64,000 bases of DNA, from positions 124,001 through 188,000 of the forward strand of contig NZ_CP025066.1 in NCBI RefSeq assembly GCF_002952775.1, read 5' to 3'. The stretch's first letter is position 1. Every line of letters begins with the position of its first letter. The notes under the pieces were generated by a model. That model saw only the letters and a list, made by a program, of their open reading frames with translations, was not told the DNA's origin and made no database searches. Both the position numbers and the translations under genes were made by a program. This DNA is from Halalkaliarchaeum desulfuricum. GTDB taxonomy: Archaea; Halobacteriota; Halobacteria; Halobacteriales; Haloferacaceae. Positions 29,114 to 47,374 of the stretch are shown here, piece by piece.

Positions 29114-29186
29114 GGGCGCGTAGCTCAGCGGACAGAGCACTTGGTTCCGGACCAAGATGCCGCGGGTTCAAATCCCGTCGCGCCCG
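29114..29186 (+). tRNA. tRNA-Arg (anticodon CCG)
   Basis: A complete 73-nt cloverleaf. Acceptor GGGCGCG pairs with CGCGCCC plus discriminator G. The D-stem is GCTC/GAGC. The anticodon stem CTTGG/CCAAG encloses TTCCGGA, giving anticodon CCG for codon CGG. The T-stem is GCGGG/CCCGT with loop TTCAAAT. No intron is seen and no CCA is encoded. Its 3' end is the integration site of the accessory region that follows. Confidence 0.95.
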
Positions 29187-29187
29187 T
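29172..29187 (+). repeat. att core, copy 1 (3' end of tRNA-Arg)
   Basis: ATCCCGTCGCGCCCGT: the 3' half of the T-arm and acceptor stem plus one base. It is repeated exactly at 29245-29260, the form expected of an integrase target and its duplicate. Confidence 0.75.
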
Positions 29188-29244
29188 TCGTTCACTTCGT
29201 TCACTCACGAGCGCGACTTACCCCCGCTCGCTCCGCTCGCGGGG

Positions 29245-29260
29245 ATCCCGTCGCGCCCGT
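29245..29260 (+). repeat. att core, copy 2
   Basis: A second exact copy of ATCCCGTCGCGCCCGT, 73 bp after the first. The 57 bp between hold only short repeats (CGTTCACTTCGTTCACTC and CGCTCGCTCCGCTCGCGG). The sequence turns AT-rich immediately afterwards. No integrase gene is seen next to it. Confidence 0.7.
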
Positions 29261-29756
29261 CAACTTCTAACCGCATGACGGTGGCGGGGTGTTTGCCGTG
29301 ATATCGAAAGGCGCATGCTTTCGTTCGATGGTCGAACGCTCAATGGTGTCCCAGTAGGGCTCACGTACATCCAAACTGGAGTGTGGAGTGAAAATCAATC
29401 GCCGATTGAGTCCATTAGCTCGCTTGCTCGAAGAGCGAGTCTGAATTCTCTTGGAGCCCACCTACCAGATCAAGAATAACTTTCTTGGGAATGTCCTCAC
29501 CAGACACGATCCCGTATGAATCAATTGGTGACTTCGGACTGCGTACTGACTGCTAGAACGTCTCTCAGTTTTAGAGATGTTCTGAGCGCCGTACAAGATG
29601 TAACGCGCGAGTCTTGCATTGGAATTGTTTCCATTTGAACTCATATCTTATCTGGAATGATGTGTATAGACCATGGACACATCAATTCGCAACTATTCTT
29701 CCCATCCAGTATCCTCTGAAACAGCCGATCAATAGGTTTGCGAATTGACTACTCTT
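29261..29756. other. AT-rich stretch without a recognisable gene
   Basis: About 500 nt just inside the accessory region. Composition falls to near 45 % GC from about 65 % in the core. Only short, unconvincing frames are present. It may be decayed element sequence. Confidence 0.5.
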
Positions 29757-30101
29757 TTAAGCGGGTTGTGACGTCGTGTATCGAATTCCAGCAAAGTATA
29801 GGCCACAGACAATCACACTAATCAGAAACCCAGTCGCGACACTTACTGTTACCCACTCGTACGGTGAGATAGTAATCGCTCTCGATTTGAGAAGCTGGAA
29901 GTATATGTATCCAAGTTGATCTCCGTATGCGTACGGAATGAGAAATCCTCCGAAACAACTGGTAGCAAAGCCAATTGCCAATAGTAGACGCTTTGCTGAA
30001 GAGAATCCACGCTGACTGGTATCAAGGTAGATTCCGACGAAGACGAGGATACCGACGAGTAAACCCCCGCCGATCAGGATTCCCAGATAGATGTTACTCA
30101 C
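29757..30101 (-). CDS. Hypothetical membrane protein
   Basis: A 114-residue protein with about three membrane segments (residues ~5-25, ~37-57 and ~85-108: YLGILIGGGLLVGILVFVG, LLLAIGFATSCFGGFLIPY, VTVSVATGFLISVIVCGLYF). It starts with GTG. TTAATAA at 30126-30132 on the opposite reading is centred 28 nt before it, supporting a leaderless transcript. No family recognised. Its codons are poorer in GC than core genes, in keeping with acquired DNA. Confidence 0.55.
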   Translation of the reverse strand: MSNIYLGILIGGGLLVGILVFVGIYLDTSQRGFSSAKRLLLAIGFATSCFGGFLIPYAYGDQLGYIYFQLLKSRAITISPYEWVTVSVATGFLISVIVCGLYFAGIRYTTSQPA

Positions 30102-30385
30102 ACAAGATACTCTGCAGCCTACTCGTTAATAAGGTGGGATTCCGTTATTGATACGTCTGATCTCGCTATCATCTGAATAGACCGATCTGAATCGTCGATC
30201 TTCATCGAACACTCAGTGCAAGACTCGCCCCTTGGACACAGCAGTGGTTGAGTGTCAACTCGAATTTACGAATTGAATCGATTGAGGCAGACAGATCTTA
30301 AACTTCAATTTGTGACTTTTCATTCACAGAACTCTCTCTAATACCGTCGATCAATAGGAATGCATAATCTGGGATGACAAGTGAC
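30102..30385. other. AT-rich intergenic stretch
   Basis: Apart from the promoter of the left-hand membrane protein at its left edge, nothing with coding or structural character is seen. Confidence 0.4.
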
Positions 30386-30715
30386 TCAGAGGAGACTACT
30401 AATCCACATCAGAATGGAAACGACAAATCCGCTGATAAATGCTACCAACAGGAAGATAGCGACCCACCGTCGTCCGTTATCTGGGAGATATGGGATCTCA
30501 CTTGGGTAAATTGGGGAAAGTGTCCCTTTTTTATCTGAACCGCGTCCATCCATATACTGAGAAACAGACTCTACACTATTGTTACTTCTGCTGCCGGTAG
30601 TGAACGATCTCAGCAAGACTGATTTCCATATTTCTTGGTGATGTGTTCGCCCAATGTACACATCAGGCTGTTTCTGACAGGATACTGCAATGAGAAACTT
30701 CGTCTGCAACATCAA
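30386..30715 (-). CDS. Possible small protein with C-terminal membrane anchor
   Basis: A 109-residue frame. Residues ~85-107 (WVAIFLLVAFISGFVVSILMWI) form a clear membrane helix after a charged stretch. The N-terminal ~50 residues look less like a real protein, so the true start may be the ATG at 30553 (55 residues). No homologue recognised. A tail-anchored small protein of the integrated element is the best reading. Confidence 0.35.
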   Translation of the reverse strand: MMLQTKFLIAVSCQKQPDVYIGRTHHQEIWKSVLLRSFTTGSRSNNSVESVSQYMDGRGSDKKGTLSPIYPSEIPYLPDNGRRWVAIFLLVAFISGFVVSILMWISSLL

Positions 30716-30819
30716 TCCTCTGTATCTTGTACAGCTGTCTTACCAGTTGGTGGATAGTTCGGAGTGTCCCGCGTTAGATCGTTCCTCTGTGCGGACCAGA
30801 ACCCAGTTCAGATATATCT

Positions 30820-31775
30820 CTTTCTGAGGCTCCATTGAATCGCCAGACATCGCCGTAGTAAGTCGTAAAATCGAAGAAGTTGAGGCGAGTGAGTAGCAGT
30901 TTGGATGAACCTTACCACCCGCCTCACCGAGGAATTAGTCTCGCTCGCCAAAAGTTATTCCGACGATGCTGAGGAAGCTGCCGCCCCGGAAGGTGGCGGC
31001 AGCTTCGCTGAATGGGCGATGATTTCGCTTCACGGCTTGCGAATTTTCCTTGAGAAATCCTACGTGATGACAATCGACCTGTTAGAGACAATGACGCAAA
31101 TTCTGGAGATTATTGGCCTTGAACCGGACGATCTCCCGGCACCATCCACGTTGAATAAGTGGCTCGACAGGATTGAGATGGCAGTTTGGCGAGTGCTGCT
31201 GCGCCACTCGGCGCAGTTGCACAATCCCTCTCCCGACGCTGCCGTTGACGCTACCTACTACGAACGCTCTCCGGCCAGCAAACACTACTGTGACCGCACG
31301 AACTACCGCGTTCAGACCATCGAGGCGACGAAACTCGTCGATACAGAGACGCAAGCGATCCTTGACGTACACTGCACCACGACCAGAGAAGGGAGTGACG
31401 CCGATGTCTGTGCGCAACTCGCCCGGCGCTACCCGGGCGAGTTACGCACGCTTGCCGCCGATAAGGGCTACGACAGCCAAGAGTTACGCGAGCAACTCCG
31501 TGAACTCGGCATCAGACCACTCGTCAAACATCGTGTGTTCGCGCCCTACGATCACGCACACAACGCCCGAATTAACGACGATCTCTACAATCAGCGCTCG
31601 ATGACCGAAACCGCCAACTCCTCGGTCAAGCGCTCGTACGGCTCGGCCGTCCGAGCGCGTGAATGGTACCGCGAGTTCCGCGAGATTGCCCTGATGTGTC
31701 TCGTCTACAACATCAAACGCTACGTCAAACCATGAATTCTAACGTCTTACAGCGATTCAATGGAGCCCTTTCTGA
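30820..31775 (+). mobile_element. Intact IS5-family insertion sequence with 8-bp target duplication
   Basis: The element spans 30828-31767 (940 bp). Perfect 16-bp terminal inverted repeats GGCTCCATTGAATCGC lie at 30828-30843 and, inverted, at 31752-31767. The 8-bp direct repeat CTTTCTGA flanks it at 30820-30827 and 31768-31775. It carries one uninterrupted transposase gene. An 8-bp duplication and this size fit the haloarchaeal (ISH1-like) part of the IS5 family. Perfect ends and duplication indicate a recent, probably active insertion. Confidence 0.9.
30905..31735 (+). CDS. IS5-family DDE transposase
   Basis: A 276-residue transposase. Putative catalytic residues are D115 (VDATYYER), D186 (AADKGYDS) and E235 (RSMTETANSSVKRSYG), the IS5 DDE pattern, with the Y-x2-R-x3-E-like signature after the glutamate. 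Residues ~35-105 are the helical N-terminal DNA-binding region. It is intact and lies wholly inside the element. Confidence 0.9.
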   Translation: MNLTTRLTEELVSLAKSYSDDAEEAAAPEGGGSFAEWAMISLHGLRIFLEKSYVMTIDLLETMTQILEIIGLEPDDLPAPSTLNKWLDRIEMAVWRVLLRHSAQLHNPSPDAAVDATYYERSPASKHYCDRTNYRVQTIEATKLVDTETQAILDVHCTTTREGSDADVCAQLARRYPGELRTLAADKGYDSQELREQLRELGIRPLVKHRVFAPYDHAHNARINDDLYNQRSMTETANSSVKRSYGSAVRAREWYREFREIALMCLVYNIKRYVKP

Positions 31776-31781
31776 GGATTT

Positions 31782-31800
31782 CAACAAAGCCGCTTTGTTG
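31782..31800. repeat. 19-bp near-perfect palindrome beside the IS5 element
   Basis: CAACAAAGC, one C, then GCTTTGTTG: a 9-bp inverted repeat with a one-base centre, 6 nt after the target duplication. It may have been a terminator or operator near the insertion point. Confidence 0.6.
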
Positions 31801-31847
31801 GATCAACAGATTCTCGAAGTACTCGGCGTGCTCCTCGCAGGCAGTCG

Positions 31848-32186
31848 CTATTCACCGACGCTGTTGAGCGCGCTGTTCAGCTCAAAGAGTTCACGAACCA
31901 CCTCGCTGTCTGCGACCCGGTATCGGTGCGGTGACGTGTTCGGAACTTCCTCGATCAGTTCGACCTCAATCAAGAGGTCGGTGTAGTTACCAACGGTCTG
32001 GCGCGTTACACCAGCGTGTTCTGCGAGTTCGGTTTTGTTGAACTCGCGGTTCGGCGGAAGATCGAGCAACGCGTCTACGAGAATCGGGATCGCGTCGTGT
32101 TGCGTGAGGTAGAGCCACCCGCTCGGGTGTTCCTTCCGGAGCTGCTTCTTCGCTCCCCGGTCATCCGCCTGCTCCATACTGCTCAT
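31848..32186 (-). CDS. Winged helix-turn-helix regulator
   Basis: A 112-residue DNA-binding protein. The winged-helix core is PILVDALLDLPPNREFNKTELAEHAGVTRQTVGNYTDLLIEVELIEEVPNTSPHRYRVAD (residues ~30-95), a pattern common in haloarchaeal accessory regions. The start at 32186 is fixed by TATAAT at 32211-32216 (read on the minus strand), 27 nt upstream. Target genes unknown. It sits between the IS5 and IS6 elements. Confidence 0.8.
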   Translation of the reverse strand: MSSMEQADDRGAKKQLRKEHPSGWLYLTQHDAIPILVDALLDLPPNREFNKTELAEHAGVTRQTVGNYTDLLIEVELIEEVPNTSPHRYRVADSEVVRELFELNSALNSVGE

Positions 32187-32281
32187 ACAGAGAGACACCA
32201 GTCGAGTGTGTATAATTGTTCCCACTGGCGTAAACGGTCATTAACAGTCTTTATATAAGAGTGGATTCATCTCCCTCTATG

Positions 32282-33034
32282 GGGCACTGTTAAATCGAGA
32301 GTGAAGTAGATGGGAGTTCTTCATTCGAGTGTCCATGCTCGAAGAACTCCCACTCGATCCAACGGAGTCATCAGATGTAGCGTTTTTGGATGATGAGCGC
32401 ACGCCAGCCTGGTTGGTTCGGCTGGCGTGCGCAGCTCATGCTGCGTCGGCGTCTCTGTCAGAATGTAGTGACCTGCTTGCCTGGTTCGGCGTTGATCGAA
32501 CCAGGCAAGCGATTTGGTACTGGTATCAAGCCTACGGAGAGTACCATGACGAGGAATTCACGGCCGAACCAGATCGCGTTGCTGTCGACGAAAAACAGGT
32601 CAAACTCGAAGGTGGTGAGAAGGTCTGGTCGTATGCAGCGATCGACGTTGATTCGAAGATCGTGCTCCACGTCCAACTTTCGGAACATCGGGGAACTGAC
32701 CCTGCTGCGGAGTTTCTCGTGAGCTCAAAGAGAAACACCGCGTCACCGACGCGGAGTTTCTCGTCGATGGGATGGGCTACTTGACAGCTCTTGCTCGGAC
32801 TGGACTCGCTGGTGACCTCAACTACTCTGACCGCAACATCGTTGAAAAGCTCTTCCAGACCTTCACCATGCGAATCGGGCGTTTTCACGAGATTTGGAAC
32901 GGCAGTCAGGCCAGCGCTGAACGCTGGCTGACTGCCTACACCGCCTACTATAACCACTTCCGAAGTCACCAAGCACTCGACAATGAACCCCCGATTAAAC
33001 ACGCTACATTAGCGGATGCAATTTAACAGTGCCC
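32282..33034 (+). mobile_element. IS6-family element (frameshifted)
   Basis: Perfect 14-bp terminal inverted repeats GGGCACTGTTAAAT (32282-32295) and ATTTAACAGTGCCC (33021-33034) bound a 753-bp element. The 8-bp flanks (CCTCTATG and GTCGAGTG) do not match, so one side has been rearranged since insertion or the element came in by co-integrate resolution. The transposase is broken by a one-base loss. Confidence 0.82.
32335..33026 (+). pseudogene. IS6-family transposase, frameshifted
   Basis: The N-terminal part reads to GTDPAAEFLV, then the frame is lost at about 32719 and picks up as DGMGYLTALARTGLAGDLNYSDRNIVEKLFQTF to the stop at 33026. Adding one C in CTCGTGAG near 32719 would restore a protein of about 230 residues. 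The IS6 DDE residues are visible: VDEK, DGMGYL and NIVEKLFQ. Rearranged as it is, the gene cannot make a full transposase unless the loss is a read error. Confidence 0.85.
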
Positions 33035-33116
33035 GTCGAGTGAATGCGCAATTTTCCCAACGTGGACGGTTCCCGAACACAAATACGTCTTGCCCTCGCA
33101 CGTTCTCACACGAACG

Positions 33117-34106
33117 ATGCCCCACGAGTGTGATGCCTGCGGCGACACGTTCACCACGCTGAGTCGCATTCGCCTGCACGACTGTCCGGCAGAGGACTCA
33201 GAGAGTCAGGATTCACTGTCTTCGTTTGACGCCTTCCTCGATTCGATTTCGGACGCGCTCGAAGCGGACATGCAGCGAAACGTACAGGAGCGTGAGAAGC
33301 GAGGGCTGGACGCCGCGAGCGAGACGTTGAAAACCAACCTCGAGACGGCCGCCCAGGGAGACGTCGACGCTGCGTACAGGTTGATTGGCCAGTACGAGCG
33401 AGAACTCCAAGAGTACCACGCCGCCGAGGACTACGACACGTATCGCGGGATTTTCTGGGCGTTTTACGAACCGGCCACGGAGACTCTCGACGAAATCGCC
33501 GCGCGCGAGGGATGGGAGTTTCTCACGGAACTGATCGAAGCCTACCCGCGCGTGAGTACCGACGACGAGCCCCTCGCGAGTCCGGTCATCGAGAACGTCG
33601 TCGGGAGACACGTCATCCGGACACGTCTACGCGATGGTGTCGAAGCAGTCCCTGTTGATGCGCTCGTATATCTCGGTTCGTTCTGGGAATCGATGGGTGA
33701 AACCAGTGGCGAAGAGTCGTTCGCGTACGGCTGGGGTATCGGCCATCCGGATCACTCTGTTGCGGATCACGTCCATGATGTCGTCACTGAGGACCTGTTC
33801 TGGGTTCGAGGTACGCTTCCGCACGCGTTCTACGCCGACCAACACGCCGCGGCCGATCTACTCGAATCGCTGCTCACCACGGATCGAATCGACTACGAAG
33901 ATCGATACATGCTGGCGTCGATTCTGGCCACGGTTGACCAAGATTCGACGCCGAAAATCCCCCGCTACTGGGACGTTCGCGAGGAACTGGACTACCGCTT
34001 CGAGTGGGACGAGTCGACCAGGGCTCGATTACGTGAGACCATCGAAGACGAGAGATTTCACGAGCGTCTGCCCAAAAACTGGACGTTCGGCGATATGGAA
34101 GTATGA
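33117..34106 (+). CDS. Hypothetical protein with N-terminal zinc knuckle
   Basis: A 329-residue protein. Residues 3-23 hold C5-x2-C8-x12-H21-x-C23, a C2HC-type zinc finger; the remaining ~300 residues are helical, acidic and unmatched. ATG 33117 is chosen over a TTG at 33090 because a TATA-like CAAATACG lies about 33 nt upstream and the zinc motif follows at once. Its stop overlaps the next start (ATGA). Function unknown; it and the broken gene after it may be one unit. Confidence 0.65.
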   Translation: MPHECDACGDTFTTLSRIRLHDCPAEDSESQDSLSSFDAFLDSISDALEADMQRNVQEREKRGLDAASETLKTNLETAAQGDVDAAYRLIGQYERELQEYHAAEDYDTYRGIFWAFYEPATETLDEIAAREGWEFLTELIEAYPRVSTDDEPLASPVIENVVGRHVIRTRLRDGVEAVPVDALVYLGSFWESMGETSGEESFAYGWGIGHPDHSVADHVHDVVTEDLFWVRGTLPHAFYADQHAAADLLESLLTTDRIDYEDRYMLASILATVDQDSTPKIPRYWDVREELDYRFEWDESTRARLRETIEDERFHERLPKNWTFGDMEV

Positions 34107-35504
34107 GCGACACAGAGAAGTTACTCGAAGAGATGCCGCCGGAACTGCTCCGTGGGTTTCTCGCCCGGGAGCTGGAAACTGATCCGGATCTCGAACGCCG
34201 ATTGCATTCTTTTCTGAACACGTCCGACCTCGATGTCTACGAACTCCGAGCCGAAATCGAGTCCAAGTACGGGTATCAGACGGCCCCGAACTTCACCCAG
34301 CACGAAAAGCGAGCAGAGTCGTACATTGAGAAGGGACGATATCGCGACGCGGAGACCATCTACCGCGCGATGTTCGAGGCGATGCGCGATCACCTCCACG
34401 AGTTCGACTCCCATCGAGGTGGATTCGAACACGACGAAACCTTTCAGGACGCGATCGCGAGCTACGCAACCTGTATCCACGACGCGAACCTCCCACACGA
34501 GGAGAAATGCGAGTACATCGAGTACTGTTTTGACCAGTGGGTCGACGAACACGAAGAAGGAGGCTTCCCACAACATTTCAGGGAAGCACTCTGGGAGATG
34601 TGCACGACCGAAGACGACTATCGCTACTGGCATCCCTGCTGAGGGGTCGACTTGACGAGCGGCTCGAGTCCGATCGCATCTACGGTGAGCACTACGATGA
34701 CGACACGGATGCATGGCGTCGCGGTGATCTCACTACTCCCGCCGACGAGGACGAGTTACTCGACGGCTACACCGAAACCGCATGGCTGCGGGGCTTCGTC
34801 GAACTGCTCGACCGCCTCGACGAGGAGGCGGAACTCGGGGGCATTCTCGCACGACACTATCCAGCATCTCGACACCTCTGTCTCCGATACGCTCGTTTCC
34901 TCGCTGATGAGGGCGAACAGGAGGCAGCCGTTACCGTCGCCGAGTATGGGTCGACTCGTTCTCGGGGTCGGATACGGTACCGCTCCGCGAATTTCTTGTC
35001 GATCGATACGAGGCGACTGACCCCGATGCCTTCCGAGAAATGTTAATCGATCTGTTTGCCGAGCGAACCGACTGGACGTACTACGACCGGCTGAAAGTGG
35101 CAACCCCAAACGACGAGTGGGATCACGTCGTCGACACGATCGTCGATCGACTGGACAGGCGGTGGGCCGCCGAGACGATCGTAGAGATCTATCTGCGAGA
35201 GGAACGCATCGAGGACGCATTCGAGACGGTTACCGATGTTCAGGATCTTGACCTGTTCGAGGCGTATATCGATCAACTCGGAGATCATGATCCCGCTGCG
35301 TACTTTGATGCGTATCGTCGGGAGATCAAGAACGCCGCTGCCGACGCAAGTCGACGAAAGTACTACCGACAGGTCGCCGAGCACCTCCAGACCATACGGA
35401 CGCTGGGGCGTGATCGCCGGTTCGAGAACCTGGTCTCATTCCTGCGAGACGAGTACTCGAACCGGCCGGCGTTTCTCGATGAATTAGAGAAGGTTGGAGT
35501 CTAA
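34103..35504 (+). pseudogene. Helical-repeat protein related to SWIM proteins, two frameshifts
   Basis: Three consecutive frames read as one protein of about 465 residues. The first ends at RYWHPC (34642) and continues as LLRGRLDERLESD one frame back; the second break is at about 34947, after which VDSFSGSDTVPLREFL runs to VGV at 35504. Both breaks are one-base losses in runs (CCCC to CCC near 34635; GGGG to GGG near 34948). The C-terminal repeats (ETIVEIYLREERIEDAF, then YYRQVAEHLQTIRTLGRDRRFENLVSFLRDEY) resemble the C-terminus of the SWIM protein at 36645. Two losses of one kind also fit sequencing error. Confidence 0.7.
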
Positions 35505-35519
35505 GTCTCGATTTCCGTC

Positions 35520-36008
35520 TCATCTGAAGTAGCTCGGAATGATGCCATATGTTCTGGCAACTGAGACGATCTCTTCGCGAAACTCCTCGGAGTCCTCACC
35601 GTGCGAGTCCGCAAGTGCTTCTACGTCGTCGGAATACGCCTCGCGGATCGCTCTGGCTTCGGCCCGTCCCTCGACGGTCGGTTTCCAGACGGCTGTCGTA
35701 CCATAGTCACCTGGCTCGAACGGTGGACCGGGGCGCTCGCGTTCCCCGACACGCTCGATCAGGCCCCGGTCTTGCAGTGTTTGAAGGGCGGCTTCGACCT
35801 CGGGTTCGAGTTCCGCGTCCATCGAGAGAAGCTGCTCGAGTGACGGCCATTCGGACCCACCTTCCGTCATGATGGCATCGAGTTGTGTACAGGCTGCCAC
35901 AAGATCGTCAGTCGTCTTTTCAATACCACCGTAGTCGTGTTTGTATCGTCTATCGTGGGTGGTGAGTTGGACGATGAGTAGCCGCTCGATCCACGTCTCG
36001 GTTTCCAT
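35520..36008 (-). CDS. Hypothetical acidic protein, third gene of SWIM operon
   Basis: A 162-residue soluble protein with no recognised family. The middle looks like a winged helix: PSLEQLLSMDAELEPEVEAALQTLQDRGLIERVGE (residues ~55-90), followed by a predicted sheet and a helical C-terminus. It lies 73 nt after the 180-residue gene on the same strand and is convergent with the broken helical-repeat gene. Confidence 0.6.
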   Translation of the reverse strand: METETWIERLLIVQLTTHDRRYKHDYGGIEKTTDDLVAACTQLDAIMTEGGSEWPSLEQLLSMDAELEPEVEAALQTLQDRGLIERVGERERPGPPFEPGDYGTTAVWKPTVEGRAEARAIREAYSDDVEALADSHGEDSEEFREEIVSVARTYGIIPSYFR

Positions 36009-36081
36009 GTCTGTATCCTACAATCGGAGCCTACAAAGCGTGTCGTACGATGCTGCGTGTCGGAAAGAACAACGTCCACTG

Positions 36082-36624
36082 TCAGTCAAGTTCTGCCTGC
36101 TCTTTCAGCTCACCGATTAAGAGATCGAGAATCGCTTCTTTGTCTTCGTCGGGGACCGGTCTCCCATCGAGTTCGTCGAACTTCTCTTCCCAGTGGTCGA
36201 TCCACGATTCGAACACGTCGTCGAAGGCCGCTTCCGGATCGTCTGCAGCCCTCACGTCCTCGATCCCCATTTGGATCATCTCTTGGGGTCCTCCGGCCCC
36301 AAGCTCGGCTTCGATCACCAGCCACGGCTCGTACTCGAAGGTCGAAGAGAGCTCTTCGATATGCCACGTCTCGTCGGTCAGGTCCAGTTGGTACTCCGTC
36401 AGAACGTGAAATCGGGCGGGTGATGTATCGACTCCTGGCGCACCCATGTCCGAGAGGTACATCGTCGGATGGCGCTCGATCCGAAACGAGAGCATCTCGC
36501 CTGATTCAAACTGAAATCCGAAGGCCCGTTCACGAATCTTCTCCAGTGTCAGTCCATCTTTGGGCAGGTCGATGCCATACTCGTCCAAAGCGGTGAGAAC
36601 GCGGTCTCTGGTAGTCCTGTCCAT
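36082..36624 (-). CDS. Hypothetical acidic protein, second gene of SWIM operon
   Basis: A 180-residue soluble alpha/beta protein, no family recognised. Strands such as GFQFESGEMLSFRIERHPTMYL and WHIEELSSTFEYEPWLVIEAELG alternate with an acidic helical end (DDVFESWIDHWEEKFDELDG). It starts 20 nt after the SWIM gene, so the two are co-transcribed and possibly act together. It shows no membrane segment or metal motif. Confidence 0.6.
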   Translation of the reverse strand: MDRTTRDRVLTALDEYGIDLPKDGLTLEKIRERAFGFQFESGEMLSFRIERHPTMYLSDMGAPGVDTSPARFHVLTEYQLDLTDETWHIEELSSTFEYEPWLVIEAELGAGGPQEMIQMGIEDVRAADDPEAAFDDVFESWIDHWEEKFDELDGRPVPDEDKEAILDLLIGELKEQAELD

Positions 36625-36644
36625 CCTTTCTCACCTGGGTTCGA

Positions 36645-38456
36645 TTACTTCGCGAATTCCTCCAACAGTTCCTCAAGCATCGGACGGAGCTTGTACTTTT
36701 GATAGTGTTCGTCCCGGAGATCCTCGACGTAGGTACGCCACTCGTCGAGTACGCCTGCGGCCTCGGCTGCTTTGCCAGCGATTTCCAGCCAATTCACGGC
36801 GTGATGATACTGCTGTGATTGGCCTTCATCGATGATCGGCTCGGCCTGCTCCTTGCAGACGTCGATCGTCCAGTGTGGGTGCTCCTCCCAAACGTCCTCG
36901 ACGACCGGCTCGACCACCTTGTAGTCGTCAAAGCAGTCTGCGATGGCGATCGCCTCGTCGTACCGGTCCGCATACAGGAAGATCTCGGCGTGTCGCGGCG
37001 CGACCCGCTGGGTCGTGTCCTTGTTTCGAAGAGACGTCAGTAACTCCTCACGAACGTCCGGCCACTCTTCACCGGCGAGTTCCTCCGTTGCTTGGTAGGC
37101 CGAAAGCGTCGGGGAGGCGTTGAACGCCGCGATAGCCGCCTCCAGTGCGACCTCGCGTTCGCCCAGACTGCTGGCTCGGTCGCGCAGCCATTCGGCCAGT
37201 TCCGCCTTCCCGCTCCCCTCGAGAGTCAACCCATTCTGGGCGATCTCCAGGGCTGCCTGTGGCCGGTCGTGGTTCCGGAGTGCTCTGGCCAGCGTGAGTG
37301 CTTCGTCTGGCGAGTACAGGTTGTTATGGCCGTACTCAATCGCCTCGTCGATCCGGCCTTCCTCGACGAGCTTGGTCACGTACGCGTCGATCAGGTCGGC
37401 GGCCGCCGCCAGATTCAGGTACTCCTCGATGCGGTCCTGGCGTTCGAGGACGTTGAGGCGGGCTCTGATGAACTCCTCGGCGTACCAGGGTGGATCGCCT
37501 TCCCAGAGGTCGGCGTAGCTGGCATCGCCGCGCATCGCTCGCTGGACCGGCTCGAAGTTCCACCCCCGCTGGGCGGCTTCGAGGGCGACGCTGTACGGTG
37601 GCTGATGCGTATAACTCCCCATCTCGTTCTCCCACCGCCAGAGGCGGTCCTCCCAGTCGGCGCGTCCCGATTCCGAGAGATCGGTTGTGAGTAGCGCTTC
37701 GGCCAACGCCCTGTCGACCTCGTCAAAAAATTCGAAGATTGCGTTGGAATCGTCGTATGAAAGGGCCAGCCACTCTCCGTCCATCAGTTCGTCGGCGAGG
37801 GGTTCGAGGATGTCCAGCGCCGTCTCGCCATCGCCGGCGTTGATCGCGGACCACGCTTGGTGGAGGAGATCCCGGAGCTTCCCGACGTCGGTCTCGACGG
37901 CCGCATACGGGTCGTACGCGTGGGCGCTTTGTCCTTCCGTTGGACGAAGGACGTACTGCACCTGCTGTCGGATCGACTCCCGGTTGATGTCGGGTGTTCG
38001 GTCGTATGAGTCGCCGTCTACGTCTCCGGATTCTGCTGTTTCGAGTCGAGATTCGACCTGGTCTGCCAGTTCCGGGTACTTCTCCACGAGATCGACGAGC
38101 AGATCCCGCAGCAGTTCGGGATCCGTATCGGCGATCAACTCAGAGGTGGGCGGTCGCTGATCGATCTCGTCGGGATCGCGGACGTACGTCAGGAGGACGG
38201 CGACGCGATGCTTGCAGATCCCGCCGTGATCGTACGGACAGGAACACGCCGTGTCGACGATACCGGTTTCATCGAGTTCGATCTGCACTTGGTAGGGTTC
38301 GTACTGGCTCCCCTCGACCTCGGCTCGCAGCAGAGTACCACGGCGAGCAGCGTCGATGACTGCGCCCCGCTCGTAGTAGTCTTCACCCCGATCAAAGGAC
38401 TGCGACCGTGCCAGACGCTCGATTGCTGCTTCAGTGAGTGTCGGGTTCTGTTCCAT
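36645..38456 (-). CDS. SWIM zinc-finger protein with helical repeats
   Basis: A 603-residue protein. Residues 71-83 form the SWIM motif C71-x-C73-x7-C81-x-H83 in a beta-strand context. Residues ~110-600 are a solenoid of TPR/HEAT-like helix pairs. SWIM domains bind DNA or proteins and occur with helicases, recombination factors or kinases; here no enzymatic domain is fused. The following two genes on the same strand (20 and 73 nt apart) make a three-gene operon, and the broken gene at 34103 looks like a partial relative. Role unknown. Confidence 0.85.
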   Translation of the reverse strand: MEQNPTLTEAAIERLARSQSFDRGEDYYERGAVIDAARRGTLLRAEVEGSQYEPYQVQIELDETGIVDTACSCPYDHGGICKHRVAVLLTYVRDPDEIDQRPPTSELIADTDPELLRDLLVDLVEKYPELADQVESRLETAESGDVDGDSYDRTPDINRESIRQQVQYVLRPTEGQSAHAYDPYAAVETDVGKLRDLLHQAWSAINAGDGETALDILEPLADELMDGEWLALSYDDSNAIFEFFDEVDRALAEALLTTDLSESGRADWEDRLWRWENEMGSYTHQPPYSVALEAAQRGWNFEPVQRAMRGDASYADLWEGDPPWYAEEFIRARLNVLERQDRIEEYLNLAAAADLIDAYVTKLVEEGRIDEAIEYGHNNLYSPDEALTLARALRNHDRPQAALEIAQNGLTLEGSGKAELAEWLRDRASSLGEREVALEAAIAAFNASPTLSAYQATEELAGEEWPDVREELLTSLRNKDTTQRVAPRHAEIFLYADRYDEAIAIADCFDDYKVVEPVVEDVWEEHPHWTIDVCKEQAEPIIDEGQSQQYHHAVNWLEIAGKAAEAAGVLDEWRTYVEDLRDEHYQKYKLRPMLEELLEEFAK

Positions 38457-38691
38457 CGCGTACTCCCTCTTTATCCGATCAAAAACCTCGTCGCTCTCAA
38501 AATAGTGTTTGAACAGGTACTCCTCGTCGACCTCGAAGACGTTTACGGAAATTCGAGGCGAAGGCCTCGCGGTTCACCGCGGGGATGAAGCCGTCACCTG
38601 AAGCGGGATCCACGCCCGGATCCGTGGGAGGATATTCCACGGAGAGGAGTCATCCGCAACTATTATGTAAGAAACCATACGACGCTTACAT

Positions 38692-39957
38692 ATGTCGAAT
38701 CAGGTCGTCACTCGGACGTTCAAAGCGAGTATCTGCAATCACTCGCAAGTCCGTGAGGACCTCGATTCGCATGGCTTTGCCGCATCGAAACTGTGGAACG
38801 TCGGGCGGTGGACAATCCAACGTGTCTGGGATGCCATCGGCCAGATTCCCAGTGGGGACGATCTCTGTTCGTATCTCAAACACCACGACTGCTACGGGGA
38901 TTTGCACTCACAATCCAGTCAACGAGTTCTTCAGGAACTCGGTGAAGCGTTCGACTCGTGGTACGGGCAGGACGACCCGGATGCGAACCCCCCCGGCTAC
39001 CGCAAACACGGCGACGACCATCCACGCTCGACGGTGACGTGGAAAAACCACGGCTTCAAACTCGACACCGAGCACAGCCGTGTTCGTCTCTCCAAAGGGA
39101 CGAATATGAAAGCCTCTCGGTACGCCGCTGACTACATCCTGTGTGAATACAGGCTCCAGACGGACGACGGTCGGACGCTAGCTGCTGTCGACAGCGTTCA
39201 GACCGTCCGTGCTGTCTGGACTGGCGAGCAGTGGGAGTTGCACTTCGTGTGTAAACTGCGGAGTGAGACCGCCGAGTCTCCCGGTGAGAAAACCGCGGGC
39301 GTCGACCTCGGGATCTGCAACACTGCAGCTGTCTCTGTCGGTGACGAGACGCTGTTGTATCCGGGAAACGCGCTGAAAGAAGACGCCCACTACTTCCGGC
39401 AGGAAGAATACGACACACAGGGCGAAACCGGGCCGAGCCACCACGCACAGTGGGCGCGAGAGAAGAACTCCCGACGGAAAGATCACTTTCTGCACGCGGT
39501 ATCGAAAGATATTGTCGAGCAGTGTGGTGACCGGGATGTCGGGACAATCGCAGTCGGGGATCCGAAAACCGTTCGTGAGGACCAAGACTGGGGACGCCAC
39601 GGGAACAAGCGGTTGCACGACTGGGCGTTTGAAACGCTTCTCAGCTACATTGAATACAAGGCCGAAGACCGTGGGATCGAGGTTGAACGGGTGGATGAAG
39701 CGGGACTGAAAACGTCGAAAACGTGCTGTGTGTGTGGGAGGGAAGCTGATTCGAACCGCGTCGAGCGTGGGCTGTACGTCTGTGATGAGTGTGGACTGGT
39801 GGCGAATAGTGATCTGAATGGGGCGGAGAATATGCGAGCGACGGTAACTCCGAATCCCGCACGGGATAGGAGTAACGGCTGTTTGGCACAGCCATCGGTG
39901 CGCCTGTTCGACAAATCAACGGGGCAAGTCGCCCCACAAGAACAGGTCGTCTCGTAA
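38692..39957 (+). CDS. tnpB: RNA-guided nuclease family protein TnpB
   Basis: A 421-residue TnpB. RuvC-I is GVDLG with D205; RuvC-III is NSDLNGAEN with D374; the zinc finger between is C345/C346-x2-C348... with CDECG (C364, C367). At RuvC-II, where TnpB normally has Glu-Asp, the sequence is AVGDPKTV, so the catalytic glutamate place holds G289 with D290 next to it. Many haloarchaeal IS1341-type TnpBs share this form. TnpB uses an omega-RNA from the element's right end to cut DNA next to a target motif. If the site is inactive it may act as an RNA-guided repressor. Confidence 0.85.
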   Translation: MSNQVVTRTFKASICNHSQVREDLDSHGFAASKLWNVGRWTIQRVWDAIGQIPSGDDLCSYLKHHDCYGDLHSQSSQRVLQELGEAFDSWYGQDDPDANPPGYRKHGDDHPRSTVTWKNHGFKLDTEHSRVRLSKGTNMKASRYAADYILCEYRLQTDDGRTLAAVDSVQTVRAVWTGEQWELHFVCKLRSETAESPGEKTAGVDLGICNTAAVSVGDETLLYPGNALKEDAHYFRQEEYDTQGETGPSHHAQWAREKNSRRKDHFLHAVSKDIVEQCGDRDVGTIAVGDPKTVREDQDWGRHGNKRLHDWAFETLLSYIEYKAEDRGIEVERVDEAGLKTSKTCCVCGREADSNRVERGLYVCDECGLVANSDLNGAENMRATVTPNPARDRSNGCLAQPSVRLFDKSTGQVAPQEQVVS

Positions 39958-40026
39958 ACCCTAATATCCCAATCAAGCGGTGCGGGGCCGTGGGAATCCT
40001 CGCGCTTCAGCGCGCGGAGGATGTCA
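39958..40026 (+). ncRNA. Putative omega-RNA (reRNA) scaffold end of the TnpB element
   Basis: TnpB guide RNAs overlap the 3' end of tnpB and run across the right end. Here the 3' flank folds into a strong hairpin (39996-40022) and stops with TCAA; the guide would be the host bases that follow (starting CTGTTCTTG at 40027). The RNA itself is inferred. Confidence 0.45.
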
Positions 40027-40223
40027 ACTGTTCTTGACTTGCTCGGCGGAATCCCACCATTTCATATGTCAGAAAGTCCCATACATTATTGAATTTTCCG
40101 TCAGTAGCGGTTCTGACTTCCGTTTTCCGCGTACTACGAACCAGTTGGGAGACAAACAGACGATGTATCGTAGGGCCTGACGACATCTTTTCGATCGGTC
40201 TCATCAAACTGGCGGGGAGGCGA
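40027..40223. other. Intergenic stretch, no gene seen
   Basis: About 200 nt of mixed composition between the TnpB element and the end of the deoxyribosyltransferase-like gene. No convincing frame or repeat. Confidence 0.4.
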
Positions 40224-40892
40224 TCAGTCGAGGCGATCGAGCGAGCCATAGAGCTCTTCGTTCTGAATGTGGGTACAGAACTGCGCGCAGAGTCGACAGC
40301 AGTCCTTGGCATCGGTAAACGTCCGGACGCTGGCGTCCCAGCGGGTATTGACGGCTCCAAGCATTGCACTTCGAACCGATGGTTCGGTCGCGACCATGAT
40401 CCGCCGTGCGCGCTCTGGTGGGGTCGCGTCGGCTGCGGGGCCTCGCATCGCATCCGTTGATAGGAGATCCTCGAGGACGCTTCCGATCTCGATCCCGACA
40501 CCGAGGTTATCGCCGACCTGCGGGGCAATGAAAATTGTTGCATTACTCGCCTGCGCAAACGCGATACTCTGTGTGGCGGCATCTATCTCATCGAGGGAGA
40601 TTCCGACGTCGATCGCGAGGAAGGCATTGAATCCACGGTCGCGGAGACAGTCTCGAGTTTCCTGAAGGAGCCGCAAGACGTCGTCTTCGGCGTACTCCCC
40701 GCTGGTCTCGTCCCACGTAGCAAACGACGGGGCATCGGTTTCGACATCGGCGTCTGCCGGAAGCAGCGCGTCGACATCGAACGTCCGGTACGGTCCCATC
40801 AGGTAGACGAGAAACTGTTCCCGCCGGACTGGGGCAAGCGCATCCGAGTCCCTGGTAGCACGAGGGAGATTGTCGATAATCCGTTGCCGCAT
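40224..40892 (-). CDS. Nucleoside deoxyribosyltransferase-like protein (DUF7509-like)
   Basis: A 222-residue protein with a Rossmann-like core. The motifs FLVYLMGPYR (strand 1 and loop), NAFLAIDV, the helix IDAATQSIAFAQASNATIFIAP and GDNLGVGIEIGSVLE recall the 2-deoxyribosyltransferase / TIR-like fold, where the last segment's Glu is catalytic. I know similar haloarchaeal proteins as DUF7509, from memory. Start 40892 (ATG) is set by TATATAA at 40918-40924, about 29 nt upstream. It is divergent from a winged-helix gene, the usual arrangement of a regulated pair. Function unproved; a nucleotide-cleaving role is an inference. Confidence 0.62.
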   Translation of the reverse strand: MRQRIIDNLPRATRDSDALAPVRREQFLVYLMGPYRTFDVDALLPADADVETDAPSFATWDETSGEYAEDDVLRLLQETRDCLRDRGFNAFLAIDVGISLDEIDAATQSIAFAQASNATIFIAPQVGDNLGVGIEIGSVLEDLLSTDAMRGPAADATPPERARRIMVATEPSVRSAMLGAVNTRWDASVRTFTDAKDCCRLCAQFCTHIQNEELYGSLDRLD

Positions 40893-41003
40893 TCGAGTCA
40901 CCCGTTCGAAACGGCAGTATATAACTATCGGTGTTCTCAGGAATATTCTAGTCGAGAACGACTAAGTATGTAGCGTCCCAACGTACACTCGAGGCACCCC
41001 CAG
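40893..41003. promoter_or_regulatory. Divergent promoter region
   Basis: A 111-nt spacer holding TATATAA at 40918-40924 for the minus-strand gene and CTAAGTA at about 40958-40964 as a weaker plus-strand box. The two boxes are about 40 bp apart, close enough for one regulator to control both. Confidence 0.5.
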
Positions 41004-41396
41004 ATGTCCGAAACCGATCGCCATCCAACAGCGGACGTTCGCCAACCGGAGCCGCCGCTTCCCGAAGAGAGTGGGCTGACGCTTGAGGAGTACCTCGCGA
41101 TGCAACAGGCGATCGGACATCCGACTCGATTTCGGATCCTGCGCACGATCGTCGCCAACGACGAACTGAGCGCCTCGGATCTCAAGGCTGCGGTTGACGT
41201 CGAATCACACAATTTCCATTACCATCTCGACGAACTGGTCGATGTCGGACTCGTCGACAAGCGCCAGCGGCGGACTGCTGACAGCCACGGCTTCTACACG
41301 TATTATCGACCGACAGCGATGGGGAGCGGCATCCTCGAACACGGTGTCGAGGAGCTGATGCGCCGTGAACGAGAGTTCAACGACGCTTATTCTTGA
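41004..41396 (+). CDS. ArsR-like winged-helix regulator
   Basis: A 130-residue DNA-binding protein. The ArsR-type winged helix covers residues 30-100: QQAIGHPTRFRILRTIVANDELSASDLKAAVDVESHNFHYHLDELVDVGLVDKRQRRT. The last 25 residues are a helix that may mediate dimerisation. Divergent from the deoxyribosyltransferase-like gene, so it probably controls that gene and itself. Confidence 0.82.
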   Translation: MSETDRHPTADVRQPEPPLPEESGLTLEEYLAMQQAIGHPTRFRILRTIVANDELSASDLKAAVDVESHNFHYHLDELVDVGLVDKRQRRTADSHGFYTYYRPTAMGSGILEHGVEELMRREREFNDAYS

Positions 41397-41698
41397 GATC
41401 CTCCTCCATATTGTCGTAGAAGTAACCGTTTCTTTTAACCAACAATTGATTCTCTTTATGAGTCTGTTGGTTAATTCGATCAATAGAATTCTCTCTTATT
41501 TCTTTGTTACGAAAGATATATATTATTAGAATATGCTGCGGAATGATATGGTGAAAGAGAAGAATCAGCTTTTAGATGAGGAATGCAATCTAAACAATAT
41601 CGGTAGTTCCCATCACTCCAGATTCCTGACTGGATTTCTGGGGAAGTCTGAGGGAGATTAGATTGACTCTTTCGCTGGGTTGGACAGAGACGGCGATC
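41397..41698. other. AT-rich stretch at the edge of the ISH3 remnant
   Basis: About 300 nt, very AT-rich from 41440 to 41600 (TTATGAG..., TATATATTATTAG). No frame of note. TTAGATT occurs at about 41659 and, inverted, near 43001, which may be remains of the ISH3 terminal repeats. Confidence 0.4.
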
Positions 41699-42984
41699 TC
41701 ACGCCAGTGAGAACGCCGTCAAGCCTGCCAAGACGCGAAGCCATCGCTCAGTAACAGGGCATTCGCTGGACGCGGGCCAAATCAGCCCGCGTCTAGCTGG
41801 CTGTATGTTGGGGGAATTCCGACACGGTTGGTCGGTGCTTCCCACTTCCGATCTAGGTGCTTCCCACTTCCGATCCAACGTGTCGTCGAGTGCGTGGTCA
41901 ATCCACTCACGAAACACCTCAAAACGGAACCAGACGGGCAGTGCTCGCCCGCCGCGTCGCGGCGTGGCGAGCACGCCCCATCGAACGATTACCCACAGAT
42001 TCCGCAACAGAAAGCTCACCAGCATGAATAACAACCGAACGACTGGATCCGTGGTACTCGTCCGTGCACGCGCTTCGCGCATGGTCCGGAACGCTGTCTC
42101 GATGGCTGAGCGTTTCCGGTAGAGGGCTTCGACTTCCTTCGGCGTGCGATCGGTCAGATCGCACGCCACGGACGCTCGGACGAGTAAGCCGTGCTTGTCT
42201 CGCTTGCCCTGCTGGTAGGAGACACAGACCGCGAGCGGGAACTCCGCTTCCGCTCGCTTCCTTCGTACATCACGTACTCCGTCCAGTAGGAGACCGTGGT
42301 GTCGAGTTTCTCGGCCATCTGTTTTCCACGACGAATGACTGGAAGAGCGACTGGCGCGACGGCGTCCAGTCGCTCGATGGACGTTCCGTCGTAGAAGCCA
42401 CGATCAGCGAGGAGGCCAGCTACGTCGAACGGAAGGGCCGCGACGTGGTCGAGCAGACGCTCGACCGCGTCGCTTTTGGGTTCATCGCCACGAACTGGCG
42501 TAACCGCGACGACGAGTGGTTTTGCCCGACAAAGAACGAATCCAGCGAGGTAGCGATGGCACTGGGAGGTGCCATCGCGGGGTTTTGTGCGACAGAGTTC
42601 GCTAGCGTCGGTGTGTGGACAGCCGTGGTAATGGATATCGACGAAGTCGACGCAGATGATCCTCGGCCCCGGCCCGAGGATCATCGACACTTGCTGAGCG
42701 AACAACTCGTTGACGATAGCTTCCAATTCGTCCGGTGGAACGGTGTGCAACTGAGCGAGAGTGTAGTCGTCAGAATACGTTCCACGAGTGGTATCAGTGA
42801 CGGCCTTGATCGATTTCTGATCGACGGTAGCTTGGAGGAGCGTCCGTCGAATGATCCCGGAGTCGAAGCTACAGCCTTCGACTCCGGGGATCGGAATCTC
42901 TGCAAGTAGACCAAGCGCTAACGTTTCAAGGTCAGAGGCCGTAAGAACGGTGTCTGGGTGGTATAGGCAATTCACAACACCCAT
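41699..42984 (-). pseudogene. ISH3-family transposase, frameshifted and duplicated
   Basis: The N-terminal 230 residues (MGVVNCLYHPDTVLTASDLETLALG to EYVMYEGSERK) and the next part (EAEFPLAVCVSYQQGKRDKHGLLVRASVACDLTDRTPK) are in different frames; one missing G near 42260 would join them. DDE residues are visible: CVDFVDIHYHG, LLADRGFYDG and RSAIETAFR. Further down, a 22-bp tandem duplication (41834-41877) shifts the C-terminus again. The full protein would be about 390 residues. Assigned to ISH3 by the ADRGFY and RKRSAIET signatures. Confidence 0.82.
41834..41877. repeat. 22-bp tandem duplication in the ISH3 transposase remnant
   Basis: GGTGCTTCCCACTTCCGATC plus two bases occurs twice at period 22 (41834-41855 and 41856-41877), with one base difference in the last two. 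As 22 is not a multiple of three, it breaks the C-terminal frame. Confidence 0.85.
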
Positions 42985-43037
42985 CCAGACGCTTTCTGAG
43001 AATCTAAGGCTGTCACTACTGACTATCCGCTGACTCG

Positions 43038-43394
43038 ATGGGAACTACCGAATGTCCAAAGTATCGCCACTCAGTGCTTGATGAGATAGAACAGTCGTTA
43101 GATACATCGTTCAGAGAGGTGTGTAACGAGTACAACTACGAGATATTATCGTTGCATATCTCGCCCGACCACGTACATCTGTTTGTTTCAGCACATCCGA
43201 AGAATTCCCCGAGCGAGATTGCACGGAAAATCAAGAGCATTACAGCCAGAGAGATGTGGCAGCAACACGAATCTCTTTTGGAAAACTACTTCTGGGGTGG
43301 TGGATTCTGGGAAGAGTCGTACTACATTGGAACGGCTGGTGAGGTATCTAGCCAGACGATTGAACAGTATATCGAACGTACTGAACACGTCTAA
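43038..43394 (+). pseudogene. tnpA: IS200-type TnpA (Y1 transposase), 5' truncated
   Basis: 118 residues. The HUH motif is D44-H45-V-H47-L-F-V and the catalytic tyrosine is Y111 (TIEQYIERTEHV), so the catalytic core is whole. The usual N-terminal 15-20 residues (ending V-W-CPKYRRSV) are missing: the match begins at C6 of CPKYRHSV, where the ISH3 remnant's flank joins. So insertion or rearrangement beside ISH3 removed the start. It is probably inactive, though a short product from ATG 43038 could be made. Confidence 0.8.
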
Positions 43395-43413
43395 TAGAGC
43401 TTACGGCATTCAC

Positions 43414-43488
43414 CCTCGGGGTCAAGTCGTTCGAGAATCGGAGATTCTCGTGATCCCGAAATTCTCTGATTTTCGGACGACCCCGAGG
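43414..43488 (+). repeat. Three-stem cruciform structure after tnpA
   Basis: The outer 10-bp stem CCTCGGGGTC (43414-43423) pairs with GACCCCGAGG (43479-43488). Inside are CGAGAATC-GGA-GATTCTCG (43432-43450) and CCGAAA-TTCTCTGAT-TTTCGG (43456-43476). The whole forms a three-way junction ending right at the point where the cysteine desulfurase fragment begins, so it is probably the right end of the IS200-type element. Confidence 0.75.
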
Positions 43489-43779
43489 CACTCTGCCTGC
43501 TTTCTCTGTAGACGTGACCAGGTGTCCACGCGTGTTGTGATCGAACACGCCTTTGAGTGCGAGGTTATCGGCTTCACTTCCTCCACCGGTCACGACAATT
43601 GATTCCGTCGATGTCCCAAGCAGGTCTGCCACCTGTTGTCTCGCCGTTCGGACCCCGTCAGCGGCACTCGACGCGTACTGGGCGGACGGGTTGTGATACT
43701 GCTCTCGCAAGTACGGCTCCATAGCCGCAATAACGTCGTCGTGGGGTTTCGTCGTCGCAGCGTGATCGAGGTAAATCAT
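43489..43779 (-). pseudogene. Cysteine desulfurase, N-terminal fragment
   Basis: The first ~92 residues of a NifS/IscS-type cysteine desulfurase: MIYLDHAATTKPHDDVIAAMEPYLREQ, NPSAQY, VTGGGSEADNLALKG and GHLVTST. The match ends there, exactly at the IS200-type right end; the rest of the PLP enzyme (the Lys and Cys sites) is gone and does not appear on the other side of the mobile DNA. A deletion rather than simple insertion is implied. The remnant lies downstream of the MFS and rhodanese-MBL genes on the same strand. Confidence 0.85.
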
Positions 43780-43804
43780 ATATCGGTATTGAGAGAGTGT
43801 CTAC

Positions 43805-45088
43805 TTAATCGTCTGCCTGTGAGAGCGATGGCCGTTCGTGCGTTCCAAACTCCGGATGCGTTTCCTCCAGCAGCAGGACAACCAGCCCACCGGAGATGAA
43901 CATCGCTATCGCAGTTCCATAGAAGGCTGCCTCGATGTACAGCAGATCCATCGTGAGACCGATCAGGATTGCTCCGACCGCGTAGCCAAGGTCGCGCCAC
44001 AACCGATAGACCCCCAGGCCCGTCGAACGCCAAAGGGGATGGGCAGCATCGCTGGCAACCGAAATCAGGTTCGGGTAATGTAACGCCATTCCCACACCGG
44101 CGATGCCGGACATCACGGCCCAGGCCAGATAGCCTTCGACAAACATCATTCCGAGGATGCCGCCGCCGGCAAGGAAGAACCCGACGACAATCGGTGGCTT
44201 TCGACCGATCTGGTCACCGAGTCTGCCGGTATACACCTGCAAGAAGTACGCCGCACTGTGGACACCGACGACGACACCGATCTGTGCCGTGTCAAGACCT
44301 TGTGCAAAGAGGAACAGCGGGAAAGCGATCCAGACGAGTGTATCCACGAAGTTTTCGACGTGGCCAGCCTGCGCAGCAGTAAACAGTGTCCGGTCGCCGT
44401 AGGTCGCCTGTTTGACGATTTCCGCGAACGGGAGATCCGCATCGTCACTCGGTTGCTCGTCCCCACCGTCGGGTTGTGCGGCTTCCGCCTTCGCATACGG
44501 CAGCGTCTCCTCGATAAAGAAGATGGCAATCAGCATGGCAACGATAAGCACCAACAGCAGGAAGTAGAACGGTTCCGGTCGGAGACTGTAGGCAGCGGCG
44601 ATGACGCCGGTCAGCCACGCCCCGACAGCGACGCCGGTGTAGCCGAACGCCTCGTCGATGCCGGCTGCCAGCCCACGCTGCCCTGGACCGGCGAGTTCGA
44701 TCTTCGAGATCATACTCATGCTCCAGGCGACACCCTGGTTGACGCCGAGGAGAAGGTTTCCGGCGACGATCCACTCCCAACTCGGAGCGAAGATCAGAAT
44801 GAACGGGATCGGGAGTGCCGACACCCACCCCAGAATCAGGATCGGCTTTCGACCGTACGCATCCGCCCATTTTCCGGAGTAAAGATTGAGAACTGCTTTG
44901 ACGATGCCGAAGCTCACGACGAACGATCCGATGACGAGGAACGATGTGATTCCGAACGTCTCCTCCCCCATAACGGGTACGACGGTTCGTTGTGACCCCA
45001 TCGTGAGACCGACCGCAAACACCGTCAGCACCTGGAGCAAGAACTGCGTCCAGTTTGCTCGAATCCCTTGTGTGTAGCCCGAACTCAT
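43805..45088 (-). CDS. MFS transporter of the sulfur module
   Basis: A 427-residue major facilitator superfamily protein with 12 predicted helices. The loop 2-3 motif is GKWADAYGRKPILILGW, with the second-half equivalent GRLGDQIGRKPPIVVGF. A cytoplasmic acidic loop (KAEAAQPDGGDEQPSDDADLP) lies between halves. Its start is 3 nt from the stop of the rhodanese-MBL gene, so it shares that operon, followed by a truncated cysteine desulfurase. By neighbours it may export or import a sulfur compound or thiol-reactive agent; this is inference. Confidence 0.82.
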   Translation of the reverse strand: MSSGYTQGIRANWTQFLLQVLTVFAVGLTMGSQRTVVPVMGEETFGITSFLVIGSFVVSFGIVKAVLNLYSGKWADAYGRKPILILGWVSALPIPFILIFAPSWEWIVAGNLLLGVNQGVAWSMSMISKIELAGPGQRGLAAGIDEAFGYTGVAVGAWLTGVIAAAYSLRPEPFYFLLLVLIVAMLIAIFFIEETLPYAKAEAAQPDGGDEQPSDDADLPFAEIVKQATYGDRTLFTAAQAGHVENFVDTLVWIAFPLFLFAQGLDTAQIGVVVGVHSAAYFLQVYTGRLGDQIGRKPPIVVGFFLAGGGILGMMFVEGYLAWAVMSGIAGVGMALHYPNLISVASDAAHPLWRSTGLGVYRLWRDLGYAVGAILIGLTMDLLYIEAAFYGTAIAMFISGGLVVLLLEETHPEFGTHERPSLSQADD

Positions 45089-45091
45089 AGA

Positions 45092-46204: not shown

Positions 46205-46229
46205 CGTACTATCTGTAGTGCCAAGAGGG

Positions 46230-46237
46230 GTATATGA
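46230..46237 (-). promoter_or_regulatory. TATA element of the rhodanese-MBL operon
   Basis: GTATATGA, read on the minus strand, is centred about 28 nt before the ATG at 46204; leaderless transcript expected. Confidence 0.6.
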
Positions 46238-46278
46238 GTACTGCAGGCTATAACCGGCATTCCTAATTGATTGGACGA

Positions 46279-46294
46279 CATACGGGCCCGTATG
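46279..46294. promoter_or_regulatory. 16-bp perfect palindrome over the regulator start codon
   Basis: CATACGGGCCCGTATG is its own reverse complement and ends with the ATG (46292-46294) of the HTH-10 gene. A TATA-like TCCTAATTGATT is centred about 27 nt before that ATG, so the palindrome covers positions about -13 to +3 of a leaderless transcript. A protein bound here would block start-site use: a likely operator. Confidence 0.65.
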
Positions 46295-47029: not shown

Positions 47030-47374
47030 GCCTGCACAGTACTGGCTCGTTTTGACCGCATTCGATTTCGGATTTGTCCCCTATTTTAACGGTGGTCCAA
47101 ACCCGTGGACGATTCATTCGACAGTCCAATTGCGCCTGTCGCGCCCGCTTTCTGTCCGAACGATGTGGGACGAAAGCGATATCCAAGGATTTGAATGAGG
47201 CCAGACGCGGCCGCGTATTGTTCAGGTAACCGAATTCATGAGGACGAAATTCAATATAACTACTCGTCGGTGGTTGTTATTTCGAGTTTTCGAACCTACC
47301 GGTGCTAAGCACGGAAAAGGCCTCCCCGCAGGTTGGGAGTCACGCCAAAGGACGCGGCGGAGAACCCCTGTAGT
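47030..47374. other. Intergenic stretch before the organomercurial lyase gene
   Basis: About 345 nt, no convincing frame. AT-rich around 47240-47290 (AATTCAATATAAC), perhaps a promoter with a long leader. A chance ten-base match to the att core occurs at 47138. Confidence 0.4.

Follow-up and report, generated by a model that had tools for sequence, protein, structure and literature searches.

The window analyzed here, a 64,000-nucleotide stretch of the Halalkaliarchaeum desulfuricum genome, contains a tRNA-Arg(CCG) gene whose 3′ end is repeated shortly downstream. The 16-mer ATCCCGTCGCGCCCGT occurs exactly at 29172-29187 and again at 29245-29260, a period of 73 bp, as the original prediction had stated. 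These two copies, both at the tRNA-Arg(CCG) locus, are the only exact ones in the whole 3,313,120-bp (3.31 Mb) genome. The second copy (X2) closes a 73-bp unit in which a hairpin (spacer a), an inverted tRNA end (X′), another hairpin (spacer b) and the direct copy follow one another. The features of the locus are:

29114..29186, + strand: tRNA-Arg(CCG) gene (ARAGORN), of which the last 15 nt are the direct copy X1
29187..29259, + strand: type A tail unit of 73 bp, inserted directly 3′ of tRNA-Arg(CCG) (relatives have the same flanks without the unit)
29187..29208, + strand: spacer a (TTCGTTCACTTCGTTCACTCAC), an imperfect hairpin (from sequence; homologous spacers are known in the family)
29209..29217, + strand: X′, GAGCGCGAC, the tRNA acceptor end in inverted form (agrees with the reverse complement of GTCGCGCCC at 8 of 9 bases)
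29221..29244, + strand: spacer b, palindromic hairpin CCCCCGCTCGCTCCGCTCGCGGGG (sequence and fold)
29245..29259, + strand: X2, the tRNA 3′ end repeated exactly (together with the T at 29260 it makes up the 16-mer)
29261..29409, + strand: conserved tRNA-Arg(CCG) flank, directly following the tRNA in three genomes that lack the unit
29410..47137, no strand: accessory DNA between the tRNA array and a displaced tail, with imprecise ends; it includes a SWIM protein, an MFS transporter and a lactamase-rhodanese protein
30905-31735: DDE transposase, in the accessory DNA
38692-39957: TnpB, in the accessory DNA
47138..47212, + strand: degraded tRNA-Arg(CCG) tail, a type B unit made up of 10 nt from the very end of the tRNA, then spacer a, X′ (GGATTTGAA) and the beginning of spacer b

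In other genera the tRNA-Arg(CCG) gene has GTCGGGTCCG or GTCGAGCCCG as its 3′ end, and the X′ and X2 found there vary alongside. Judged by sequence comparison, the 73-bp repeat is one copy of a haloarchaeal palindromic repeat family located behind tRNA genes, and not the scar of an island.

Both empty and filled sites are found among relatives. For Halorubrum trapanicum, Haloparvum sedimenti and Halorubrum sp. JWXQ-INN 858, the alignment runs to the end of the tRNA and resumes at 29245-29409, with exactly the unit missing. A second flank context is found in Halorubrum sp. CSM-61, which has the unit, and in H. californiense, which lacks it. One genome (G012) has both copies of the 16-mer and none of the accessory DNA of the window; the gene adjoining its unit looks like one for a cold-shock protein. 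In H. californiense and others, the unit is absent although low-GC DNA sits there too. Thus, the unit and the accessory DNA are gained and lost independently of each other. Positions 29316-29409, within the conserved flank, form a dispersed repeat of about 95 bp; elsewhere, in G000 (the genome studied here), G201, G205 and G139, it is found as pairs with a spacing of about 1 kb.

GC content falls from 69% at 28-29 kb to 51% and then 47% in the two kilobases that follow. The drop in composition described by the original prediction is real, but the first ~150 bp behind the second 16-mer are conserved tRNA-Arg flank and not island-specific DNA. Compared with the sister species (G001), the window is variable between the tRNA and about 56.5 kb. 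The degraded tail at 47138-47212 lies 18 kb downstream of tRNA-Arg(CCG), behind the accessory DNA, and its best match outside its own genome is the unit directly behind tRNA-Arg(CCG) in the sister species (62 bp at 91.9% identity). Because the relic resembles the sister's tRNA-Arg(CCG) tail, its position suggests that incoming DNA split an older tail array. The proposed entry of accessory DNA at this tRNA thus gains support from the displaced, 92%-identical relic, although the 73-bp unit is no scar of that event. The 16-mer has no exact far copy in the genome, but the statement that no far copy is visible has to be corrected, as 10 nt of the core persist in the degraded tail. The reported lack of an integrase also held: no match to PF00589 (tyrosine integrase) occurs within the window, and the nearest is ~475 kb past its end. 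Several Halorubrum genomes have low-GC accessory DNA behind tRNA-Arg(CCG), whether the unit is there or not, and so the site is a hotspot.

Similar units are common behind other tRNA genes. In the genome studied here, 16 of the 42 tRNA genes (~40%) are followed by a full direct copy of their own 3′ end; this is the unbiased figure, as filled loci are overrepresented in a larger set of 228 haloarchaeal tRNA genes. Within that larger set, 88 genes have an exact 12-nt copy of their own end within 300 nt downstream, compared with a mean of 0.1 when tRNA ends were exchanged between genes, which excludes chance at the level of the family. Among 125 distinct haloarchaeal tRNA genes, 52 had a direct copy of their 3′ end less than 700 nt downstream, and 3 had one upstream. 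The direct copy (X) is always the host tRNA's own 3′ end. Type A units, as at tRNA-Arg(CCG) here, have an inverted acceptor end, and type B units have an inverted T-loop plus a copy running from the T-loop to the tRNA end. Units occur in rows of one to at least five, with five behind tRNA-Arg(CCT) of the sister species, so that the family includes tandem units ending in a tRNA 3′ end. At gathering score the only Rfam family matched was tRNA, and the tail units matched no other described RNA family. We also noted an orphan unit with inverted and direct T-loop copies, kept in both species (G000:C1:1642369-1642425 and G001:C2:287843-287899) and with no tRNA seen adjoining it in G000. In two further regions (G000:C1:1498038-1498358 and 2306000-2308200), tail units accompany tRNA-like 3′ ends that were missed by the tRNA model search; possibly these are intron-bearing tRNA genes.

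Of the 195 genomes of the order, 153 contained a strict X-X′-X pattern built on the T-loop consensus, and none contained its reversed version. Across the phylum, the pattern was found in 40 of 43 halobacterial genomes and 0 of 204 others, whose tRNAs the T-loop consensus may not fit. The family is thus likely restricted to Halobacteria, as far as the pattern search indicates. The 80 viral stretches listed as matches were tRNAs or bacterial palindromes, with no recognizable haloviral unit among them, and a viral source of the units was rejected. Viral contigs L185, L197, L211, L213 and L230 have near-perfect palindromes, GGATTTGAACC..GGTTCAAATCC, and look like bacterial proviral sequences. Our search of the open-access literature, with subscription papers outside its scope, found no description of these tail units.

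Copy number behind the same tRNAs differs strongly between the genome studied here and its sister species of the same genus (0 vs 5, 1 vs 4, 0 vs 3 and 1 vs 0, with one genome compared per species). In the sister genome, seven kinds of tRNA are followed by b spacers of a single type, with identities of 82-92%. For the same two tRNA-Lys genes, the b spacers of G000 resemble that type at only 54-64%. The copy-number differences and the near-identical spacers behind different tRNAs of one genome indicate that units spread. Some units, such as those behind tRNA-Gly(TCC), whose b spacers are 92% alike in both species, are plainly inherited by descent, to judge from these alignments. Therefore, units both spread among the tRNA genes of a genome and are inherited.

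The inverted copy follows its host in part. Base 57 of the T-loop in X′ agrees with the host tRNA in 63 of 66 units, but X′ matches the host well only at the loop and the first (inner) stem bases. Agreement at the outer T-stem positions is above control, though weakly, and the acceptor part is barely matched. A full host match of X′ was considered and weakened on checking. By fold prediction, the X′-b-X hairpins are far more stable than shuffled sequences (mean z -5.0; 95% below -2), and spacer a alone is modestly so (-1.3). Inverted T-loop copies (GAAC..GTTC) bound this strong, imperfect hairpin.

From the anatomy of the units, their host match, the empty and filled sites, the arrays, the distribution and the near-identical b spacers, we infer a process acting on DNA, which we consider to have about an even chance of being correct: tail units would be copied at the DNA level between the T-loops of tRNA genes and multiplied or deleted by recombination, and the locus studied here would later have been split by accessory DNA. 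Each unit leads from spacer a through X′ and spacer b to X; X repeats the 3′ end of the tRNA that it follows, and X′ is a shorter, inverted version of that end. The existence of an orphan unit also speaks for this process. The conserved T-loop sequence, direct and inverted at the two ends of b, could let a replicating or repaired strand switch template from one tRNA tail to another. Such a switch, or conversion, would carry b to a new tRNA, with X supplied by the host, and recombination between identical X copies could then add or remove units. The tail would be tolerated because X1 is always complete and the tRNA stays intact. At tRNA-Arg(CCG), later accessory DNA would have broken the older array and left the relic at 47138. 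Short palindromic elements, and deletion of DNA between short direct repeats, are known from haloarchaea (PMC3119063), and such deletion fits the instability of the tail units. Against copying it may be held that some units are inherited, that neither an enzyme nor a replication intermediate was identified, and that spread is deduced from one genome per species. The class-wide persistence of the tails could mean function rather than tolerance.

The main rival to DNA-level copying, which we regard as unlikely, is a non-autonomous mobile element, for which a trans-acting recombinase or transposase would place the a-X′-b hairpin at the tRNA T-loop or 3′ end, with X as a target duplication or attachment core. 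The enzyme could be a tyrosine recombinase working on the folded hairpin, as with integron attC sites, or an HUH enzyme, as with PATE/REP elements. The exact placement of the insertion 3′ of the tRNA, its long direct repeats, the inverted T-loop copies around a strong imperfect hairpin, and the same modules behind different tRNAs would all be expected of such an element. The T-loop is also a 7-nt loop between inverted stem halves, a layout called recombinase-friendly in tRNA genes, where it was stated for the anticodon loop (PMC8371274). The confinement of the X′ host match to the loop and first stem bases, awkward for copying, also fits a mobile element with generic ends. However, a plain element would not bring an X′ fitted to each new host, the PF00589 search revealed no linked enzyme in the window, and the listed viral stretches held no haloviral copy.

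A functional RNA tail seems improbable as well. The array would be transcribed with the tRNA, its hairpins acting in termination, 3′ processing or control of tRNA maturation, and X′ would pair with X1 or X2. The hairpins are very stable, X′ follows host base 57, and the tails persist across the class. Yet most tRNA genes of the same genome have no tail, tails are unstable between sister species, and T-runs after the tRNA differ little between filled (23%) and empty (15%) loci. With its own complete tail, the tRNA is predicted to form its acceptor stem with X1 at 0.03, compared with 0.60 with shuffled tails, because X2 replaces X1; this takeover of the acceptor strand is predicted in 96% of units. 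Shuffled or foreign spacers allow the same hand-over, which is thus unspecific and gives no evidence for a designed switch, and an RNA switch of this kind was dropped. The smaller effect of tails consisting of a-X′-b without X2 (0.14 vs 0.60 with shuffled tails, also without X2) is the part of the folding predictions that, alone, points to X′ itself.

We are doubtful of a bolder possibility, that Halobacteria hold a dedicated and still active system copying folded units, of DNA or RNA, from one tRNA 3′ end to another; this would be integron-like, with the T-loop as the recombination core and the host end rebuilt each time. Integron attC sites are imperfect hairpins bounded by inverted core sequences. 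The tail-unit hairpin is similarly bounded, here by GAAC..GTTC, but the core is the tRNA T-loop, and we saw neither an integron integrase nor gene cassettes with the units.

Archaeal tyrosine integrases (SNJ2, SSV and others) form tRNA-integrated genomic islands, and tRNA 3′ ends are their usual targets (PMC8371274). The original prediction took the 73-bp repeat for an attachment scar of this kind, and in its general form, with every tRNA-end copy left by a tyrosine-integrase element since lost or trimmed, we consider this very unlikely. As in such islands, a copy of the tRNA 3′ end lies downstream of an intact tRNA gene with accessory DNA close by, and the displaced relic at 47138 would fit too. 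Unlike in such islands, the window has no integrase, an unexpected inverted copy lies between the direct ones, and the short spacers are one recurring set of structured hairpin modules common to unrelated tRNAs, not remnants of diverse elements. Units without an island and accessory DNA without units both occur; the original prediction had itself set island-less relatives with both 16-mers as evidence against it, and G012 is such a genome. For the 73-bp unit, the comparisons of empty and filled sites largely refute a scar, and together with the spacers common to other tRNAs they led us to rule it out. The least probable reading is that rows of tRNA ends act as decoys drawing integrating elements away from the tRNA: the multiple intact copies of the usual target and the apparent splitting of an older array agree with it, but X1 is fully intact and an equally good target, and the inverted copies and conserved b motifs are left unexplained.

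In Escherichia coli, the rtT repeats are tandem repeats behind tyrT, and each unit closes with the 3′ end of that tRNA. By that description they would be the nearest known idea, as tail units are likewise tandem downstream of a tRNA gene and end in its 3′ end. However, rtT is one locus, whereas the haloarchaeal units occur behind ~40% of tRNA genes in the genomes checked and throughout the class, each with an inverted copy, with spacers common to several tRNAs and with tRNA as the sole Rfam match. PATEs, MITEs and other small mobile repeats described for Haloquadratum (PMC3119063) are, like the tail units, short, non-coding, palindrome-bearing and haloarchaeal, but they lie scattered and are either linked to the ends of transposons or of unknown origin, whereas tail units adjoin tRNA genes and carry the host 3′ end. 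A family marking tRNA genes across the class, with differences between sister species, would account for duplicated tRNA ends that might otherwise be mistaken for island scars. It can be tested in genetically tractable haloarchaea and, if active, would be a new example of short palindromes spreading via the borrowed conserved sequence of an RNA gene.

A second, intergenic repeat family, with hairpins and T runs on both strands, shares the GAGCGAAGCGAG loop with the tRNA tails. Its sites lie near 201.7, 514.4, 1552.8, 1866.0, 1919.0, 2421.0 and 3263.7 kb of G000:C1, and in layout it resembles a two-way terminator.
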